From: Promethearchaeota archaeon
Lineage (GTDB): Archaea; Asgardarchaeota; Lokiarchaeia; Sigynarchaeales; SOKP01
NCBI GenBank assembly: GCA_019057735.1
Contig: JAHLWV010000061.1
Coordinates: 1-10,842 of the forward strand
Direction: 5' to 3'
Length of the DNA: 10,842 nt
The notes under the pieces were generated by a model, which searched no databases, had not been told where the DNA came from, and worked only from the letters and a program-made list of their open reading frames with translations. The position numbers and the translations under genes were made by a program. Within the stretch, counting starts at the first letter, position 1, and each line of letters begins with the position of its first letter. Of the stretch, positions 233-10,842 are shown in pieces.

Positions 233-3200
233 TTATTTGTTTTTTGAAATATCCTTCAACATCTTCTTTATTTCGTCTGCTTTTTCTTTATCCTTTGCAA
301 GCTCGGCTTTCTTTTTCTTGTCTTCTACTGCTTTTTTTGATTCAGACAATTTAAGTGTTAATTCCTGCTTCAAAGTTAATAAGTTCTGCATGTCCTTACG
401 GAATTCCTTTGATTTAGAAATAACCCGTTCTTTTTTCTGTAGAGACAATAACTCCTCTTTTCCCTTTTTAATTTTGATTAGGTTTGAAATTTCTCCTGAT
501 AATATACTTACTTCTTTTATTGCACCTTTAATTTTTTGCGTTTCCTCTTTCTTTTTACGCTCATCTTTTAACTTCTGCTTTTCTAGTTCTTCGTGTATTA
601 TTTTTATTCTCTGATTACTTTCTATTACTTTTTGCTCGAATTTTTTAGCGTTCTCAATCTCTTTCTTAATGAATTTTGTTTGTTCACTCCAACCAATTGC
701 TTTAAACTTAGTAATTGCGGTATTAAATTTCAAGTAAGCAGCCTTAAACTCATATTTAGAGACCAATTCTTTCCCTTCATCTATAAGCCTTAATCCTTCT
801 TCTTTTATTTTTTCATTTTGTTTCTGAGTTTCGTATAACTTCTTAAATTTCTTTTGTTGCTCTCTCTTCCTAAGGTCAGTTTCCATTTGTTGCTTCCGTA
901 TCTCTTCGCGAAAAAGTTCATATTCTCGTTGTCTTTTAATATTAGTCTCTTCTTCTATTTTTCTCTTTTCTAAGTAATTTTCTTTTTCGTGGATTAAATC
1001 GTTGATTAAAGTGGTTAAATTAGTAATTTCAGGTTCCCAACCTATTTTTTCAGCTAACAAATTTCTTGCTTGAATGTACAAAGATATTGCTTTCTCGTAA
1101 TCAGGAGTGCTCATCTTGATATATTTTCCACCATCTTCTAGAAGCGAATATGCTGCTTCTCTAAATGTCAATTGATCTTGAATAATTCTCTCTCTTTGTT
1201 TAGTTGCAATCTGCTGAGCTTTCTTCTTTTCTCTTTCTTGATATCTTCTTTCCTTTAAGATGGTTTCCAAATTTCTTTCCTCTTTTAACCGTTCTAATTC
1301 TCGTTTTAAGTTTTGTTCCTTCTCTCGTCCTCTTCGTCTTTTAAGTTCTTCAGCTTTTACGATCATGCCGTTAATGGAATCTGTTGGGAAATTGATTTCA
1401 TTAAGAATAAACATCGCTTTCCTATAACTCATAATAGCTAATTCGAACTTAGAATTGTTAATGTGTAGTTCAGCGTCATCTAAAATTTTAAAAGCTTCCT
1501 CTTTCTTTCTTTCTATAAGAGCTTGCGTAAAAATTAATTTTTCATCTTCATCCTTTTTTAACTTTAAGCGCTCTCTTTCTCTGCTAATATTTTCAGCAAT
1601 TTTCTTTTGAAAATCAATTTCCTCGCGTTCTTTTTTAAGTTCTCGTTCAAGTACTTTTTGTTTTTGGAGATCATTGACTCTCTTCTTCTCTTTAAATCGT
1701 GCGATTAACTCTTTAATTGAATTCGTAGGGTAGTTAATTTCATTTAATACTAACTCTGCGCTTCTATAATATTCTAAAGCTTTATCGTATTCTGCACGTT
1801 TTATATATATTTCAGCTTCGTCAAACAATTCAAAAGCAGCTTCTTTGCGTTTCTCCAAATGTAATTTAAGGTCTTCTTGTTTCTTAATTTTAATTTGTTT
1901 AACTCTCATTTGTTCTTCTTCGTATTTCATGGTATCAGCAATGGTCTGAAGAAAGTGTTTTTCTTTTTCTTGTTTTCTAATACCATATTCTAATTCTTGT
2001 TGTTTAGTTATATTGGCCTCCCGTTTTTTTTCTTGGATTTTTAATATAGTATCTTTTATTATTTCAGTAGGAAACTGAATCTGAATTAAGATCAACTCTG
2101 CATCATAATACTTTTCTATAGATTCCTCATACTTCCCTTGTTTTAATAGATGTTCTGCTTTATCCATTATGGAAAAAGCTTCCAGCTTTTTTGTCTCCAT
2201 CAATTTTTTCAGATCTTCTCTTTTAAGAAGCTCGATCTTCTTTGATAGCATCTTTTCTCTTTCTTTTTGAAAACTTTCTGTCACTTTTCTCTCAAATACT
2301 CTTTCTTCTTCAACTTGTTTTCGTAGTTTTTCTTTTTCGAGTAATTTTTGGCGCTCTTTTTCGTCTTTTTTAAATTGCAGATTTCGACTTGACTCTTCTA
2401 ATAATGAAATATAGTTTCCCGTCCACCCTAAATGTTTAAGTAAGTTGAGTGCATTTTGATAAGCTTCAATGGATTTATCATAATTCTCTTGTGCTAAAAA
2501 GACATCAGCGTCTTCGATGATTTTAAACGCTTCTTGTTGTTTTAAAATGTTCTGGGAACTCAATACCTTTTTTGTTTCCAAAATTGCCCTTTCTTTTTGG
2601 ATTAATCTTTTTTCTCTTTCTCTTCGGATTTTAAGATTGTTAAGAAATTGCCTATGTTCGGCATCTTCTTTGATTAATTGCTCGAACTCCCTTTGTTTCC
2701 TAATTTCTATTTCTTTCTTTTCATTTTCGATTTTGTTAATCGTCTGGTTAATAAGCACAATTTCTTCGATCCATTGAATTTGAGCAAAAATTTGATTTAC
2801 ATTTCTATAACTTTCTACTGCTAAATCGAATTCTCCTAATGAAAGATAATTTTGAGCTTCATCCAAGATTTTAAACGCTTCTTCCTTTTGGCTCTCTCTA
2901 AAATTAATTTCATTTTTGCGTTCTTTCTTAACTATCTCTCTTTCTTCTAGTTTTTTTCTCTTAGCTTTCATCTCTTTGATTATTTTTTCTTGAAAACCTC
3001 TATCCTCTCTTTCTTTCCTAATAAGAAATTCGATATCTCGTTGTTTTTTGAGATAAGCATCCCGTTTTTTATTTTCGATCTCGATTATTGCATTCCCTAC
3101 TCTTTCCATTTCACCATACCATTGAATTTCAGCAAAAATACCAGTTACATGCTGGTATAATTCAATCGCTTTATCAAAATCGCCTTTCTCCAGATAAGCG

Positions 3201-5158
3201 TGAGCATCTTCCAATATTTTAAAAGCCTCATCTTTTCTCTTCTCTCGATGCATCAACTCCGCTTTTTGATCTCTTAACAAGATTTTTTTGTCTTTTAATT
3301 TCTCTTTTTCTAATTGGAGCTGTTTTGATATCTGTTCCTGAAATTGTTGTTCAACCTTAAATTGCTCTATAGATTTCATCAAATCTTTTTGTTTTGTTAA
3401 TAATTGTTCTCTTTTCCTATTTTCCAATTCTCTTATAGAATATTCAATTAAATGTAATTCGTCGTTCCATTGTATGCTCGCGAAGATATTTCCCGCTTCT
3501 TGATAAGCAGCTATTGCGCTATCTAAATCAGATTTTCTTACGAAATTATCTGCTTCATCTAAAGCTTTATACGCGTCAAGTTTACGATTTTCGCGGTGTT
3601 CTAATTCTTCTCTTTTTTCTTGGAGAATGCCTTCTCTCTGCCTTATTTTTTCTCTTTCCTTTGCTAACTCTATTGATGTGAGCTGTTGAAACTCTATATC
3701 ACTTTTTCTACGTTGGCCTAATTTAGTTTGGTGCTCTAAATCTTTCTCAATTTTGTGTTCTTCTAACTTTTTAATACTTAAAATGGTCTCTTCAATTGTA
3801 GGAGCATGAGATTCCCAATCTGTCCCTAATTCCTTTAGATATCCTAAGGCTTCCGTGTACCTATTAATTGCTTTGTTATAATCAGATTCTTCCCGTAGTA
3901 TTCTATCAGCGTCGTCTAAAATTGTAAACAATTTCTCTTCTTTCCTCAAATTTTCTTTTCTTTTTTGTTCGTATTCTAATCTTCTCTTGTCCAGTTCTCT
4001 TGCGTTTTCAATAATTTCATCTTTTTCCTTAAAATATATCGTATCTTGTAGGATTTTTAGCTGGCTCTCCCGTTTTTGCCTTAAAATATTCTCTTCTTCT
4101 TTATTCGCTTGCTTGATTTCTATATTTTTGATAAAGTTGATAACTGGTTGAATGTATGAATCCCATTCAATGGATTTAAACAATTCAATTGCTCTTTGAA
4201 ATTTAATAATCGCTTGATCGTATTTCTTCTCTCTTTCCAATTTTTTACCAAAATCAACTAAATTAAATGCTTCAATTTGTATTTTTTCTTCATCTCTATA
4301 GATCTCTGTTCTTATCTCTTCATATTCATCAGTCTGTTCTTTTATAAATATTGTTTCTATTTGTTTCTGAGAACTAACTTGCTCATACTCTTTTTTATCA
4401 TTTTCTAATTTTTCAATAATTATGTTAATACTCTTTGTTTGGTCGTGCCACCCTATAGAATTCAATAATTTTACAGCATTTTCGTAATTCTCAATTGCTT
4501 TATCGAAATTTCTATCGGTTTCAAAAAACTTTGCATTATCAATAAACTCAAAGGCATCCTTTTGTATTTCCTCCACTTGCTGTTTCATAGCTTTAAATTT
4601 CTTTAATTCTTCAGCTTCTGCTGCACTTTTCTTAACTCCAAACGCGCTAACAACCTGTGGTTCGATTTCTTGACGAATAATATCTTGTTCTTGACCTTCC
4701 CCAATCTTGGTTTCAGTCTCTGATTTATGGTGTCTTAACTTTTCTGATAATGCTATAAGTTTGCTTTGCAAATTACTTAATTGAGCCTCAGACCATCCTG
4801 TTTGAATTAGTAATTTGATTGCTGCTTCATATTGCTCAATTGCATCTCCCAAAAATCCATCTGTTTCTAATTTTTGAGCTCCATCCAACAAAGAAAAAGC
4901 TTGGTCTTGTAATTGCTCAAGTTGATTTTTCGCGTTCGCTTGATCATATATTATCTCTTGTTTTGCAAAATCTTTTAACTCTTCGATCCTAGAGAAAATA
5001 TCACTTATTTTATCCATCATAAAGCCGCTATTTTTAAGATAGTTTGCTGCTAATTCATAACTCTCCACAGCTTTTTCTAAATTTTTTTCATTCTCAAATT
5101 TTTGAGCTAAATTAAGATACTTTAAAGCTTCTTGAGCAAGTTCTTCATTTCCCAACAT
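233..5158 (-). CDS. Giant coiled-coil protein with 14 TPR/MIT-like hairpins in 116-residue register
   Basis: This is a 1641-residue, highly charged, almost entirely helical protein with no signal peptide or membrane segment, so it is probably cytoplasmic. It contains fourteen copies of a helical hairpin with the pattern A-F-x-I-L-D-x-A-x-x-Y-L, then G-x-F-D-x-A-I-x-x-Y, then a hydrophobic helix ending in Trp, Phe or Tyr. The terminal aromatics are at residues 46, 122, 237, 332, 448, 564, 680, 796, 912, 1029, 1143, 1257, 1374 and 1490. Each is followed by a short third helix and then a Lys/Glu/Arg-rich coiled coil of about 75 residues. The last 130 residues are a lysine-rich coil. The hairpins resemble TPR or MIT units. 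I do not recognise a named family. The ATG start lies 12 nt after a GAGGG-like site and gives a complete first hairpin. A structural scaffold, tether or spacer role is inferred only from architecture. Confidence 0.93.
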   Translation of the reverse strand: MLGNEELAQEALKYLNLAQKFENEKNLEKAVESYELAANYLKNSGFMMDKISDIFSRIEELKDFAKQEIIYDQANAKNQLEQLQDQAFSLLDGAQKLETDGFLGDAIEQYEAAIKLLIQTGWSEAQLSNLQSKLIALSEKLRHHKSETETKIGEGQEQDIIRQEIEPQVVSAFGVKKSAAEAEELKKFKAMKQQVEEIQKDAFEFIDNAKFFETDRNFDKAIENYENAVKLLNSIGWHDQTKSINIIIEKLENDKKEYEQVSSQKQIETIFIKEQTDEYEEIRTEIYRDEEKIQIEAFNLVDFGKKLEREKKYDQAIIKFQRAIELFKSIEWDSYIQPVINFIKNIEIKQANKEEENILRQKRESQLKILQDTIYFKEKDEIIENARELDKRRLEYEQKRKENLRKEEKLFTILDDADRILREESDYNKAINRYTEALGYLKELGTDWESHAPTIEETILSIKKLEEHKIEKDLEHQTKLGQRRKSDIEFQQLTSIELAKEREKIRQREGILQEKREELEHRENRKLDAYKALDEADNFVRKSDLDSAIAAYQEAGNIFASIQWNDELHLIEYSIRELENRKREQLLTKQKDLMKSIEQFKVEQQFQEQISKQLQLEKEKLKDKKILLRDQKAELMHREKRKDEAFKILEDAHAYLEKGDFDKAIELYQHVTGIFAEIQWYGEMERVGNAIIEIENKKRDAYLKKQRDIEFLIRKEREDRGFQEKIIKEMKAKRKKLEEREIVKKERKNEINFRESQKEEAFKILDEAQNYLSLGEFDLAVESYRNVNQIFAQIQWIEEIVLINQTINKIENEKKEIEIRKQREFEQLIKEDAEHRQFLNNLKIRREREKRLIQKERAILETKKVLSSQNILKQQEAFKIIEDADVFLAQENYDKSIEAYQNALNLLKHLGWTGNYISLLEESSRNLQFKKDEKERQKLLEKEKLRKQVEEERVFERKVTESFQKEREKMLSKKIELLKREDLKKLMETKKLEAFSIMDKAEHLLKQGKYEESIEKYYDAELILIQIQFPTEIIKDTILKIQEKKREANITKQQELEYGIRKQEKEKHFLQTIADTMKYEEEQMRVKQIKIKKQEDLKLHLEKRKEAAFELFDEAEIYIKRAEYDKALEYYRSAELVLNEINYPTNSIKELIARFKEKKRVNDLQKQKVLERELKKEREEIDFQKKIAENISRERERLKLKKDEDEKLIFTQALIERKKEEAFKILDDAELHINNSKFELAIMSYRKAMFILNEINFPTDSINGMIVKAEELKRRRGREKEQNLKRELERLKEERNLETILKERRYQEREKKKAQQIATKQRERIIQDQLTFREAAYSLLEDGGKYIKMSTPDYEKAISLYIQARNLLAEKIGWEPEITNLTTLINDLIHEKENYLEKRKIEEETNIKRQREYELFREEIRKQQMETDLRKREQQKKFKKLYETQKQNEKIKEEGLRLIDEGKELVSKYEFKAAYLKFNTAITKFKAIGWSEQTKFIKKEIENAKKFEQKVIESNQRIKIIHEELEKQKLKDERKKKEETQKIKGAIKEVSILSGEISNLIKIKKGKEELLSLQKKERVISKSKEFRKDMQNLLTLKQELTLKLSESKKAVEDKKKKAELAKDKEKADEIKKMLKDISKNK
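630..5128 (-). repeat. Fourteen-unit protein-level repeat array (about 348 bp per unit)
   Basis: The array covers the hairpin units of the giant protein, from residue 11 to about residue 1510. Successive marker aromatics are spaced 76, 115, 95, 116, 116, 116, 116, 116, 117, 114, 114, 117 and 116 residues apart. The linkers are also homologous: many share a K-Q-x-x-x-E motif soon after the third helix, a later F-Q or F-L pair, and an E/K/R-rich run before the next A-F. At DNA level the copies are diverged. The clearest shared stretch is the reverse complement of the codons for A-F-K-I, for example near 1482, 2517, 2867 and 3216. The array is therefore an old duplication that is not subject to ongoing slippage. 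Confidence 0.85.
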
Positions 5159-5338: not shown

Positions 5339-7306
5339 ATGAAAAGTAATACCTTTCAAATTACGGTCGATATTGAACCGATCTCGAGAAGACTCTTCTA
5401 CACCGAAAATGAAACCTTTTATGAATTACTGATCAACTCAGGTATCCGTGTACAGTCCCTTTGCGGCGGTAAGGGAACATGTGGCAAGTGTAAAATACTG
5501 GTTCAAGACGGAATGAATTTTTTAAATCCTCCAACAAACTCTGAAATGAAATTTCTCACGCAATCCGAAATTAGAGAAAAATGGCGTTTGGCTTGTCAAT
5601 GTAGAGTAAACCCCTCCCAAATTCAGTCAGCTAAAATACATCATTCACCCCAGATAAGGATATTTATTCCTAAAGATCTACTCGGCGAAGATTTTAAGAT
5701 ATTGACGTCGGGAAAATCTAAAAAAATAAACCTTAATCCAAATGTAAAGAAAATTTTTGTTGAAATTAATAAACCAAATTTAGAAAACCCCGTTCCGGAT
5801 ATTGAAAGAATTTTATCTTCTTTTTCGTCAATCAAGGATAATGAAGGAATTTATAGCGATCTTTCGTTTGAAATCGACACAATAAGAAAAATACCCCTAA
5901 TTTTAAGAGAAGACCAGCACCGTATTTCATTAACAGTATACAATAATAAAGAAGTAATAGATTGCGAAGCAGGTAATAAAACCGAAGATTGTTTCGGAAT
6001 CGCATTTGACATTGGAACTACAACTATCGTTGGGTATTTAATCAATTTGCACAATGGAAAAATATATTCAATTGCATCAGCTCTTAATCCACAGACAGCC
6101 TACGGTGAAGATGTTATTTCGCGTATAACTTACATAAAAGATAATCCCGCAGGACTTGGAAAATTAAATTCTATTCTGATAGAATCTTTAAACTCAATAA
6201 TAAAAGAAACCTGTAATAATGCTAATGTTTCAACTAGTCAAATATATGAGGCAACAATAGTTGGGAATTCAGTCATGCATCATATATTTCTCAATATAAA
6301 TCCTACGTATATCGGTTTAAGTCCCTACGTGCCAGCACTGAAGAGTGACTTAAATATTAAGGCAAAAGATGTAAACCTTGAGATTTCAAAAAGCGGTTAT
6401 GTCTATGTATTACCTGTAATTGCTGGATTCGTTGGAGCGGACACAATGGGCGTAATTATTTCATCAGAGATTGATAAAGAACAAGAATTAACATTAGCAA
6501 TTGATGTTGGAACTAATGGTGAATTGGTTATTGGTAATAAGGATGCACTTTTTACGGGATCTTGTGCAGCAGGATCTGCATTGGAAGGTGCTCACATTCA
6601 ACACGGCATGCGAGCCGCATCAGGAGCTATTGACACTCTTAAAATTGATCCGAGTGATTTTAGCGTTGAATACACCACGATTAATAACAAAAAACCCATA
6701 GGCTTTTGTGGTTCTGGTATTATTGATGCGGTAGCCGAAATGTTAAGAGCAAAACTGCTTACCAGAAGCGGTAACTTTAATAAAGAATTCATAGACAACG
6801 AACGTATAATAAAAGAAGAGAAAAACCTGAAATTTATATTAGTAAATGAAGATGACACCCCAATTAAAAGACACATAACGATTTCACAGAGTGATGTTAG
6901 AGAATTACAAATGGCAAAAGGGGCGTTTTATTCTGGAGCGCGCTTGATTTTAAACCACTTAAATAGCGTAAACAAGTCCGACCTAAAAATTAAACAAATC
7001 CTTTTAGCTGGAGCATTTGGAAATTACATTAATAAAAATAACGCGAAATTTATTGGGATGATTCCGGATATACCTGACGATAAACTTTTTCAAATTGGAA
7101 ACGCAGCAGGAGTCGGTGCTCAAAATTGTTTATTAAACATAGATTTAAGAAAAAAAGCTCGAAAATTACAGGAAAAAATACAGTACGTTGAAATTGCAGT
7201 TGAAAAAGATTTCCAAAAAGAATTTGCTTCAGCGATGTATTTTCCTCACTTAAACTTGAATGAATTTCCAAGTCTTAAAGAATATGCACATATCCCAAAA
7301 AGGTAA
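5339..7306 (+). CDS. RACo-like reductive activator of corrinoid proteins (2Fe-2S ferredoxin plus ASKHA ATPase)
   Basis: This 655-residue protein has full-length RACo/COG3894-type architecture. Residues 1-100 form a plant-type 2Fe-2S ferredoxin domain with Cys42, Cys48, Cys51 and Cys86 as cluster ligands, inside LCGGKGTCGKCK and ACQC. Residues 100-215 are linker and middle domain. From about 219 comes the ASKHA ATPase: FDIGTTT (223-229), GNSVMHH (309-315), IDVGTNGE (388-395), GSALEGAHIQ (412-421), FCGSGIID (456-463) and LAGAFGNYI (556-564). By family knowledge, RACo uses ATP and low-potential electrons to reduce inactive Co(II) corrinoid to Co(I) on a corrinoid Fe-S or methyltransferase-system protein. 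It is cytoplasmic. No corrinoid protein or methyltransferase gene lies in the window, so the substrate is unknown. RamA-type activators differ in having C-terminal 4Fe-4S motifs, which are absent here. Confidence 0.93.
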   Translation: MKSNTFQITVDIEPISRRLFYTENETFYELLINSGIRVQSLCGGKGTCGKCKILVQDGMNFLNPPTNSEMKFLTQSEIREKWRLACQCRVNPSQIQSAKIHHSPQIRIFIPKDLLGEDFKILTSGKSKKINLNPNVKKIFVEINKPNLENPVPDIERILSSFSSIKDNEGIYSDLSFEIDTIRKIPLILREDQHRISLTVYNNKEVIDCEAGNKTEDCFGIAFDIGTTTIVGYLINLHNGKIYSIASALNPQTAYGEDVISRITYIKDNPAGLGKLNSILIESLNSIIKETCNNANVSTSQIYEATIVGNSVMHHIFLNINPTYIGLSPYVPALKSDLNIKAKDVNLEISKSGYVYVLPVIAGFVGADTMGVIISSEIDKEQELTLAIDVGTNGELVIGNKDALFTGSCAAGSALEGAHIQHGMRAASGAIDTLKIDPSDFSVEYTTINNKKPIGFCGSGIIDAVAEMLRAKLLTRSGNFNKEFIDNERIIKEEKNLKFILVNEDDTPIKRHITISQSDVRELQMAKGAFYSGARLILNHLNSVNKSDLKIKQILLAGAFGNYINKNNAKFIGMIPDIPDDKLFQIGNAAGVGAQNCLLNIDLRKKARKLQEKIQYVEIAVEKDFQKEFASAMYFPHLNLNEFPSLKEYAHIPKR

Positions 7307-9783: not shown

Positions 9784-10842
9784 TTATCTTCCCAGTAATT
9801 TTTCAGTTTCTTTAATCTGTTCATTAATATTTTTTTCAATTGTAGATAACTTCTTCTTCTTTTCCTCAAGTTCATCTCCAGTGATTTCCCCAGTAAGTTC
9901 CTTCATGTCAAAATCTAACGACATTTTGGTGATGCTCGCTTTCTTTATTTTTAGATCCATCAAAGATTTTTCTAAACCTGCCTTTTGGGCCGCATCGCTT
10001 ACTACGGCTTTTTCGGGCATATCAACTGTAGTTTCATTTGGCACGACATCAGGTTGAGTCTTTACTATAGATTCTTTAGGAGGTTTGGGAGGTGCTACTT
10101 TTGGTGGTTTTTTAATTAAAGTAGTGGGGCTCACGGGTATAGGAGGTGGAATTGGTTCTTTTGGTATATCTGACATCTTAGGTGTTGGAATTTTAGGCGC
10201 TTTCTGAATCTTGGGCGTGGTGTCCTTCACAGGTGGTACGAATCCCGAAGGCATTTTTTTACCTACTAATTCTGTTGGTGAAATTAGTACGGGTTTTTTT
10301 GCTACTGTAGGATTAGAGACGTGGGCGAATGGTGATGTCTTCAGTTTATTTTTAGCGTCTTTAGGTACTACCGTTACACTTTTTGGCCTTTGTTTCACCA
10401 TAAAATCTGCGGGGTTTAAATTCAAACCTACAGCTGTTTTAAAGATTTTAGGCTGAATTAACATCTCAGGTTCGTTTTCTTTTTGGATTACTTCCTTCTT
10501 TTCCTCTATTGGTTTTGCAGGTTCAGTTAATTCTGATTTTTTCTCAGCTACTTCTACTTTTTTATGAATGAGTTCTGGAGTGGTAGCAGGTATTTTTGGC
10601 TTCACTAAATCCTCAACTTTGGGACTATCTGGTAAAGTAGGTTTTTTAAGTTTAGGTGGCGTTTCTATTGGTTTAGGTGGGGTTTTTACTGGTTTAGGTG
10701 GCGTTTTTATTGGTTTAGGCGGGGTTTTTATTGGTTTAGGTGGGCCTTCTATCGGTTTAGGTGGTTCTTTTATTGGTTTAGGTGGTTCTTTTATTGGTTT
10801 AGGTGGTTCTTTTATTGGTTTAGGTGGTTCTTGAACTGGTTG
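9784..10842 (-). CDS. Proline-rich repeat protein with C-terminal helical hairpin, 5' end outside window
   Basis: The frame is open through the right edge, so 352 C-terminal residues are visible and the true start lies outside. A GTG at 10605 could be mistaken for a start, but the repeat array upstream of it is in frame. Visible order: nine 7-residue repeats of type E/T-P-P-K-P-I-K (about residues 5-67), a low-complexity Lys/Glu/Pro stretch, a second proline-rich stretch with PIPPPIPV and APPKPP, then about 63 C-terminal residues forming a charged helical hairpin (LMDLKIKKASITK, then LTGEITGDELEEKKKKL, ending LLGR). The proline-rich part is probably disordered and may bind proline-recognising domains; this is inference. 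I recognise no named family. It lies 169 bp upstream of aspartate kinase on the same strand and probably has its own transcript end. Confidence 0.85.
   Translation of the reverse strand, partial: QPVQEPPKPIKEPPKPIKEPPKPIKEPPKPIEGPPKPIKTPPKPIKTPPKPVKTPPKPIETPPKLKKPTLPDSPKVEDLVKPKIPATTPELIHKKVEVAEKKSELTEPAKPIEEKKEVIQKENEPEMLIQPKIFKTAVGLNLNPADFMVKQRPKSVTVVPKDAKNKLKTSPFAHVSNPTVAKKPVLISPTELVGKKMPSGFVPPVKDTTPKIQKAPKIPTPKMSDIPKEPIPPPIPVSPTTLIKKPPKVAPPKPPKESIVKTQPDVVPNETTVDMPEKAVVSDAAQKAGLEKSLMDLKIKKASITKMSLDFDMKELTGEITGDELEEKKKKLSTIEKNINEQIKETEKLLGR
10642..10830 (-). repeat. 21-bp tandem repeat encoding nine (E/T)PPKPIK units
   Basis: Nine in-frame 21-bp units cover exactly 189 bp. On the plus strand the unit reads as variants of GGTTTAGGTGGTTCTTTTATT. 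In protein order, the first three units are EPPKPIK, followed by EPPKPIE, GPPKPIK, TPPKPIK, TPPKPVK, TPPKPIE and a degenerate TPPKLKK. The N-terminal units are nearly identical at DNA level, while the C-terminal ones have drifted, consistent with recent expansion at the upstream end. The preceding residues, QPVQ, show the array begins close to the right edge. Confidence 0.92.

Follow-up and report, generated by a model that had tools for sequence, protein, structure and literature searches.

A predicted Lokiarchaeia rod protein of fourteen helical modules with linkers of fixed length

We analysed a stretch of 10,842 nucleotides from a Promethearchaeota archaeon (assembly GCA_019057735.1, contig JAHLWV010000061.1), hereafter the window, on whose minus strand a single open frame at 233 to 5158 encodes a giant protein of 1641 residues. 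The protein consists of 14 helical hairpin modules joined by linkers; glutamate and lysine make up 31% of it, and tryptophan occurs ten times. A signal or membrane segment is not obvious by eye in the sequence, and the protein is probably cytosolic. No family was named for it by an NCBIfam scan at E<=0.01, and no enzymatic domain was matched in that scan or in a Pfam scan at E<=0.1. Its features are as follows.

233 to 5158, minus strand: giant multi-module rod protein, 1641 residues, 14 hairpin modules (open reading frame call and profile hidden Markov model modules)
4694 to 5158, minus strand: N-terminal MIT-like module pair, residues 1 to 155 (spacing of 76 in 97 of 97 non-redundant sequences with 14, 18 or 20 units)
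4268 to 4759, minus strand: linkers 2 and 3, free in length, with module 3, residues 134 to 297, the internal negative control (intervals of 103-120 and 91-111 among homologues; 0.88 indels per 100 residues for modules 2-4 at 55-70% identity)
4631 to 4660, minus strand: short conserved motif FGx[KR] within linker 2, region of residues 167 to 176 (85 of 102 non-redundant sequences)
3929 to 4132, minus strand: linker 4, residues 343 to 410, 67 residues of nearly invariant length (period and anchor comparison of homologues)
794 to 3784, minus strand: locked array from the helix-C anchor of module 5 (residue 459) to the helix-A anchor of module 14 (residue 1455), with nine 70-residue linkers (anchors and profile alignment)
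3185 to 3457, minus strand: example of a continuous helix made of helix C, linker and helix A, residues 568 to 658, 91 residues (AlphaFold2, AF2, model)
236 to 280, minus strand: conserved C-terminal amphipathic helix resembling a MIT-interacting motif, residues 1627 to 1641 (pattern in 98, stricter, or 101, looser, of 102 non-redundant sequences)

Module spacing in the window protein

The sequence-only reading of this DNA had proposed hairpins held to a 116-residue period, and a recheck of the residue positions agrees with it: tryptophans at 332, 448, 564, 680, 796 and 912 enclose five intervals of exactly 116 residues, and the later loop aromatics at 1029, 1143, 1257, 1374 and 1490 give 117, 114, 114, 117 and 116. 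Counted from the starts of helix A, the same stretch reads 113, 119, 116, 116, 116, 117, 114, 114, 114 and 119. The run of five equal intervals thus depends on the marker, since the tryptophan of module 5 is preceded by three extra residues. Each module was given three anchors: the first position of helix A, the aromatic of the loop that precedes helix C, and a residue within helix C that is hydrophobic in most of the modules. The helix-A anchor lies 35 or 38 residues from the aromatic, and the aromatic 9, 11 or 12 residues from the helix-C anchor. From the helix-C anchor to the next helix-A anchor, the distances are 30, 68, 49 and 67, and then 70 nine times (modules 5-13). Since this stretch is constant at 70, the variation in period from module 5 onward sits wholly in the hairpin loops. 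What stays invariant is this distance of 70 residues between helix C and the helix A that follows, not the 116-residue period, and period differences within the loops should leave the geometry of the rod unaltered. The helix-C anchors were first set by hand on the window modules, and the linker alignment model was derived from them; the constancy of the periods is independent of any helix-C anchor. The nine window linkers are mutually 11-35% identical and homologues share position-specific lengths, in keeping with the earlier claim of wide sequence divergence at nearly fixed unit length.

Linker length and composition across homologues

We compared spacing over a non-redundant set of 102 sequences (window included; from 171), in which the fragment P0041 was counted as a 10-unit form and the main classes, window included, hold 33 sequences with 14 units, 53 with 18 and 11 with 20, 97 in all. 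In these 97, intervals from the sixth onward take one value per position in 1053 of 1054 cases. From the fourth interval on, the period lies at the class mode in 328/330 (14-unit), 737/742 (18-unit) and 173/176 (20-unit) instances. In contrast, interval 2 spans 103-120 residues and interval 3 spans 91-111. Profile alignment places 70 residues in the linkers from interval 5 on in 297/297, 683/689 and 162/165 cases of the three classes, respectively, and in 19 of the 20 linkers of one 25-unit protein. The 9-, 10- and 25-unit forms repeat the pattern of 67 followed by 70, with nineteen consecutive 70s in the 25-unit L073 and L074.

Additionally, we slid a profile of helix C and linker, trained on 450 units of period 116, along units of other periods. 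For period 114 the profile fitted best at the predicted position in 379 of 380 units, and for period 117 in 165 of 168. The test was less clean in more diverged units (106 of 148 at period 119; 56 of 93 at period 118), and at linker 4 (period 113) a shift of 3 was the commonest value (43 of 105), consistent with its 67 residues. Modules 6-10 align without gaps over 532 columns in 31 sequences with identity down to 41%; the length filter used for alignment excluded none of 59 loci, and one of 174 sequences overall fails it (P0030, shorter by 22 residues).

Freely varying linkers in orthologues, the outcome that the sequence-only reading had named as speaking against it, are confined to linkers 2 and 3 and to some short distant homologues. 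The latter are locked only in part (L082: 32, 63, 100, 71, 70, 70; L080: 32, 74, 64). L076, cut at a contig end, has one linker of 62, and further single deviations are found in P0056, P0109, P0031, L018 and L035/L076. As a separate observation, the homologue L081, also cut at a contig end, has four linkers in a row of 60 residues.

We next counted indels per 100 aligned residues, by identity bin, in regions of the giant and in neighbouring genes. At 55-70% identity, the locked part has 0.02 against 0.88 for modules 2-4 of the same protein, and the neighbours give 0.20 (RACo), 0.19 (HDAC-like), 0.13 (aspartokinase) and 0.04 (HAD). At 70-95% identity, the E1-like gene has 0.26 against 0.00 in the locked region. 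Because the loops and linkers 2 and 3 tolerate changes, the length lock is most simply read as a limit on changes of register and rise in a continuous helix, and the lock itself is shown at the level of sequence. The earlier proposal of a rod with selection on its length thus finds support in the homologues, in the indel control, where one control gene is nearly as low, and in structure prediction, but the quantity held fixed is the 70-residue stretch.

In the linkers, proline plus glycine reaches no more than 1.2% in each column from -67 to -1 before the next module. The hydrophobic fraction of the linkers is 0.23-0.26, and fixed columns carry the recurring hydrophobic residues. At column -39 stands Phe in eight of the nine linkers (31-33 of 33 14-unit sequences) and Leu in the ninth, after module 12 (33 of 33). 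This hydrophobic position in mid-linker argues for packing on something, possibly a second rod. As regards a possible single alpha-helix of the ER/K type, Glu, Lys, Arg, Gln and Asp account for 60-66% of the linkers, but K-to-E pairs at i,i+4 outnumber E-to-K pairs (6099 to 4600) and roughly one position in four is hydrophobic. Hairpins are better conserved than linkers, with mean pairwise identities of 0.667 and 0.568 in the 14-unit class.

It had been remarked that 116 is not a multiple of the coiled-coil heptad. This is beside the point, since the fixed stretch of 70 equals ten heptads, and support for a heptad reading of 70 is itself mixed and weak. In the pooled profile, the best period of the whole helix is 3.52 (p=0.077; fixed 3.5, p=0.015), while the linker alone gives p=0.18 and 0.10 at fixed 3.5 and p=0.048 and 0.028 for the best single heptad register; in single-unit periodograms, p is 0.073 in one of nine units and 0.84 or higher in the other eight. 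We rejected the heptad as the explanation of 70 in view of this weak periodicity, the anchor-dependent count, the 67 residues of linker 4, and the repeated lengths of 56 (L041) and 60 (L081). The alignments demonstrate an exact length, not one set in multiples of seven.

Within linker 2, the FGx[KR] motif occurs in all three main classes, invariably 29 residues before module 3, and the length variation of this linker falls before it. A narrow pattern (19 or 31 of 102) had made the motif appear limited to certain lineages, which the wider pattern overturned. The motif looks like a candidate docking site.

Predicted fold, copy number and gene neighbourhood

The sequence-only reading had asked for a structure prediction of consecutive units, and the AF2 model supports a rod-like structure. 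Three of four linkers are helical throughout, so that helix C, linker and the next helix A form single helices of 91, 93 and 92 residues; the fourth linker is broken, at a predicted local distance difference test score (pLDDT) under 50. The modules are predicted to be antiparallel three-helix bundles, as in the MIT domain (PF04212), with a helix B of 17 residues. Structure comparison with VIA-align gave MIT domains as the best matches of modules 1 and 6, foremost the Vps4 MIT domain. The giant as a whole scores 69.8 bits against the MIT Pfam model (cut-off 30), and among the 11 single window modules listed none exceeds the cut-off (best 28.7). It also scores 51.7 bits as a whole against TPR_2, of the tetratricopeptide repeat (TPR) families (cut-off 27); designed TPRs are matched in the profile search and most Foldseek rows are TPR proteins. 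No match was found in a whole-protein search against solved structures at E<=0.01 or in Foldseek with two models at E<=0.001. TPR domains proper would be tandem repeats of about 34 residues stacked as a superhelix, which the window spacing of 76-119 with helices between does not resemble. Likewise, no spectrin family was matched in Pfam at E<=0.1, and the helix B of 17 and the C-linker-A helix of 91-93 residues do not fit a spectrin repeat. Length is conserved while sequence diverges, as in coiled-coil spacers.

An alpha-helix rises 0.15 nm per residue. At this rise, the advance of about 76 residues per unit is estimated at 11.4 nm, and the span of the locked part at about 103, 148, 171 and 217 nm for 14, 18, 20 and 25 units, respectively.

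The C-terminal helix follows at most positions the pattern Asp, any residue, Ile/Leu, Lys, Lys/Arg, Met, Leu/Ile, Lys, Glu/Asp, which is kept in the 98 (stricter) or 101 (looser) sequences given above, and several short forms end similarly. MIT-interacting motif 1 (MIM1) is the motif through which tails of ESCRT-III, of the endosomal sorting complex required for transport (ESCRT), bind MIT domains. The helix resembles MIM1, with an imperfect match to the consensus: the [IL]xxM[LI] spacing is conserved, but Met stands in place of Arg and the last hydrophobic position is variable. Asgard MIM1 motifs with Leu-to-Ile changes are reported in PMC7240154.

A protein search returned 173 homologues; among the 120 listed, 48 have 14 modules, 53 have 18, 12 have 20, and 7 are fragments. 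Scanning bacterial and archaeal contigs for exact peptide patterns gave 38 loci, 37 of them labelled Lokiarchaeota or Lokiarchaeia and one 'archaeon', and a profile search of 227 genomes of the phylum matched 64 at E<=1e-10 and 49 at E<=1e-60. Twenty outlier regions include uncut forms with 4, 7, 9, 10 and 25 modules. To trace the genealogy of units, modules of the other classes were scored against the 14 module profiles. In these scores the 18-unit form runs through modules 1-10, then 7-10 and then 11-14, a duplicated 4-unit block, and the 20-unit form as modules 1-11, 6-11 and 12-14, a duplicated 6-unit block (three representatives each; one unit of one 20-unit protein is nearly tied, profile 10 scoring 103 and profile 11 scoring 101). 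The single 25-unit form analysed has repeated blocks of like kind, and two 9-unit forms lack modules 3, 7-9 and one of 10/11. In a tree of three neighbour genes, with the giant excluded (37 sequences, midpoint-rooted, read without branch support values), the 18-unit forms make up one clade of 13 loci, the 20-unit form one locus, and 14 units extend across the remaining main clade. From this distribution, 14 units looks ancestral in the main clade, with copy-number changes as rare block events.

Two further groups of long proteins came up beside these homologues. L093-L101, from related genomes, form a second family (1497-1815 residues if uncut) with similar hairpins at other spacings (e.g. 102, 120, 134); most members have two intervals of 116 near the C-terminus, and one has 56-residue linkers twice. 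L102 and L103 (1100 and 1165 residues; more distant genomes) have two successive intervals of 116 and, following a middle part rich in proline and serine, a C-terminal motif of similar kind; they are possible deep relatives.

Where flanks suffice, the gene order is an Arf-like GTPase with a proline-rich tail, aspartokinase, a Rab-like GTPase, RACo-like, the giant and an E1-like ThiF gene. Identities were assigned by scanning one representative of each gene, and the following neighbours were placed.

Window, 5339 to 7306, plus strand, divergent from the giant: RACo-like corrinoid-activation protein with an N-terminal 2Fe-2S domain (in 33 of 39 sources, window included)
Window, 9784 to 10842, minus strand: partial proline-rich protein, the C-terminal part of a protein with an N-terminal Arf/Ras-like GTPase domain in L014 (3438 to 5369)
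Locus L001, 7552 to 9132, same strand as the giant and starting about 300 bases past it: representative E1-like (ThiF) gene
Locus L005, 14704 to 15213, in the flank of the giant: representative E2-like (UQ_con) gene

The E1-like gene follows the giant in 35 of 38 loci (the window ends before it), an E2-like gene lies nearby in 26 of 38, and long members of the proline-rich/Arf-like cluster are present in 23 of 39 sources. In eight related genomes, Snf7 genes score above the cut-off in all eight, and in six a MIT protein of 405-413 residues, taken as a putative Vps4 from its length and place, adjoins a Snf7 gene. In the eight genomes, the Snf7 genes lie either on a contig other than that of the giant or at a distance of over 300 kb from it.

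Competing readings and known systems

Taken together, we consider it rather likely that the giant is a long Lokiarchaeia rod, a rigid scaffold of many MIT modules, with selection acting on their axial and angular register, and possibly associated with ESCRT; the rod shape as such is well supported. Each module would be a MIT-type three-helix bundle whose third helix is predicted to run unbroken into the first helix of the next, giving a rigid spine with one module per ~11 nm. An indel of one residue in such a continuous helix would rotate everything downstream by ~100 degrees and shift it by 0.15 nm, and by this reasoning the length lock would hold a fixed axial and angular pattern of modules. 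Such a pattern would be needed if the modules face a common partner lattice, a membrane or sister rods. Several results weigh against this scaffold: the compact HAD enzyme is nearly as free of indels as the locked part at 55-70% identity (0.04 against 0.02) and lies slightly below it at 45-55% (0.06 against 0.08), and unrelated bundles score near MIT domains in structure comparison.

A purely structural rod, in which spectrin-like joints stiffen the chain or build fibres without a MIT-type ligand and the register serves lateral packing, is a serious possibility, albeit one we think less probable. The Phe or Leu patch in the middle of each charged linker is what packing predicts, as is the hydrophobic fraction of the linkers; yet the hairpins are more conserved than the linkers, and the conserved C-terminal helix and linker-2 motif are hard to attribute to packing alone. 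We regard as rather unlikely the view that equal lengths reflect nothing but a general intolerance of long helices to indels together with inheritance through duplicated units, length and spacing having no function. Block duplication did give rise to many of the units, the HAD enzyme at the same loci is similarly low in indels, and PMC5082667 describes coiled-coil spacers that keep their length without sequence conservation. However, such intolerance would itself constrain the register, and copy number also holds steady: most of the main clade has 14 units, and one clade of 13 loci has 18.

That the hairpins are TPRs binding extended peptides, strung like beads into a TPR scaffold, seems improbable to us, in spite of the TPR_2 score, the designed-TPR profile matches and the mostly TPR rows in Foldseek: the modules are set apart and unstacked, a third helix closes the bundle as in MIT, and modules 1 and 6 are best matched by MIT domains. 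Chance or an assembly artefact hardly deserves credence. The exact run of five 116s does owe something to the tryptophan marker, but conserved periods and linker lengths in homologues refute this account: 113 of the 120 listed have exactly 14, 18 or 20 modules, the other 7 being fragments, and from interval 4 on, besides 118 versus 119 at interval 5, only four of the 120 deviate (P0030, P0031, P0056, P0109).

What the multi-MIT scaffold might bind is a more tentative matter. ESCRT-III tails are proposed as the partner because the modules have predicted MIT folds: the modules would bind ESCRT-III-like proteins by their helical MIT-interacting tails, and the C-terminal MIM1-like helix would engage a MIT domain, Vps4's or that of another rod, making the giant a multivalent ESCRT-associated scaffold. 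We put this forward as a possibility on the unlikely side. Doubtful, and bolder, is a ruler for ESCRT assembly, in which 9-25 MIT modules at a pitch of ~11 nm and a fixed angle, extended by whole blocks, would hold ESCRT-III tails along the neck or tube of a membrane, and the C-terminal motif of each rod would join it to Vps4 or to the following rod. If the ruler were real, the size of the assembly in a given lineage would follow from the length of the rod, whose locked part is estimated to run from ~100 nm in 14-unit to ~220 nm in 25-unit forms.

As a natural experiment on helical register the family is unusually clean: length varies in the loops and in two linkers, whereas nine to nineteen linkers are exact, and whole-unit copy number marks lineages. 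It makes testable predictions, namely rod length by lineage, a module pitch of ~11 nm, MIT binding, and sensitivity to single-residue insertions. Asgard archaea encode proteins closely related to those of the eukaryotic ESCRT machinery and cytoskeleton, yet we found little in print on long scaffold proteins of these organisms, and a literature search, with most subscription papers and preprints outside its reach, found no description of the giant. The protein bears on how structures on a scale of 100-200 nm are built in a cell whose machinery resembles that of eukaryotes.

No eukaryotic protein is known to have more than two MIT domains. In spectrin and dystrophin, three-helix repeats have a fixed length of ~106 residues, and helix C continues into the next helix A. 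Tandem MIT pairs are described for calpain-7, ULK3 and LIP5 in PMC9477494. The giant shares the three-helix bundle with MIT proteins such as Vps4 and the two-MIT calpain-7 and ULK3, and its first two modules align with the calpain-7 tandem pair, but it carries 14 modules (9-25 in longer relatives) on continuous helices of fixed length instead of one or two. With spectrin and dystrophin rods it has in common the fixed-length three-helix repeats and the continuity from helix C to helix A; it differs in a bare helix of ~55 residues between bundles, as estimated from the model, and in a period of ~116 rather than ~106. Coiled-coil spacers and Smc arms, as described in PMC5082667 and PMC5344682, keep their length as sequence diverges and prefer discrete lengths. 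The giant likewise keeps length through divergence, but it is locked to the exact residue in module after module, has variable linkers as an internal control, and shows weak heptads. Finally, its helix A-B hairpin follows a TPR-like pattern as in the scaffolds LGN and OGT, but the hairpins are spaced out along the chain and form no superhelical stack.
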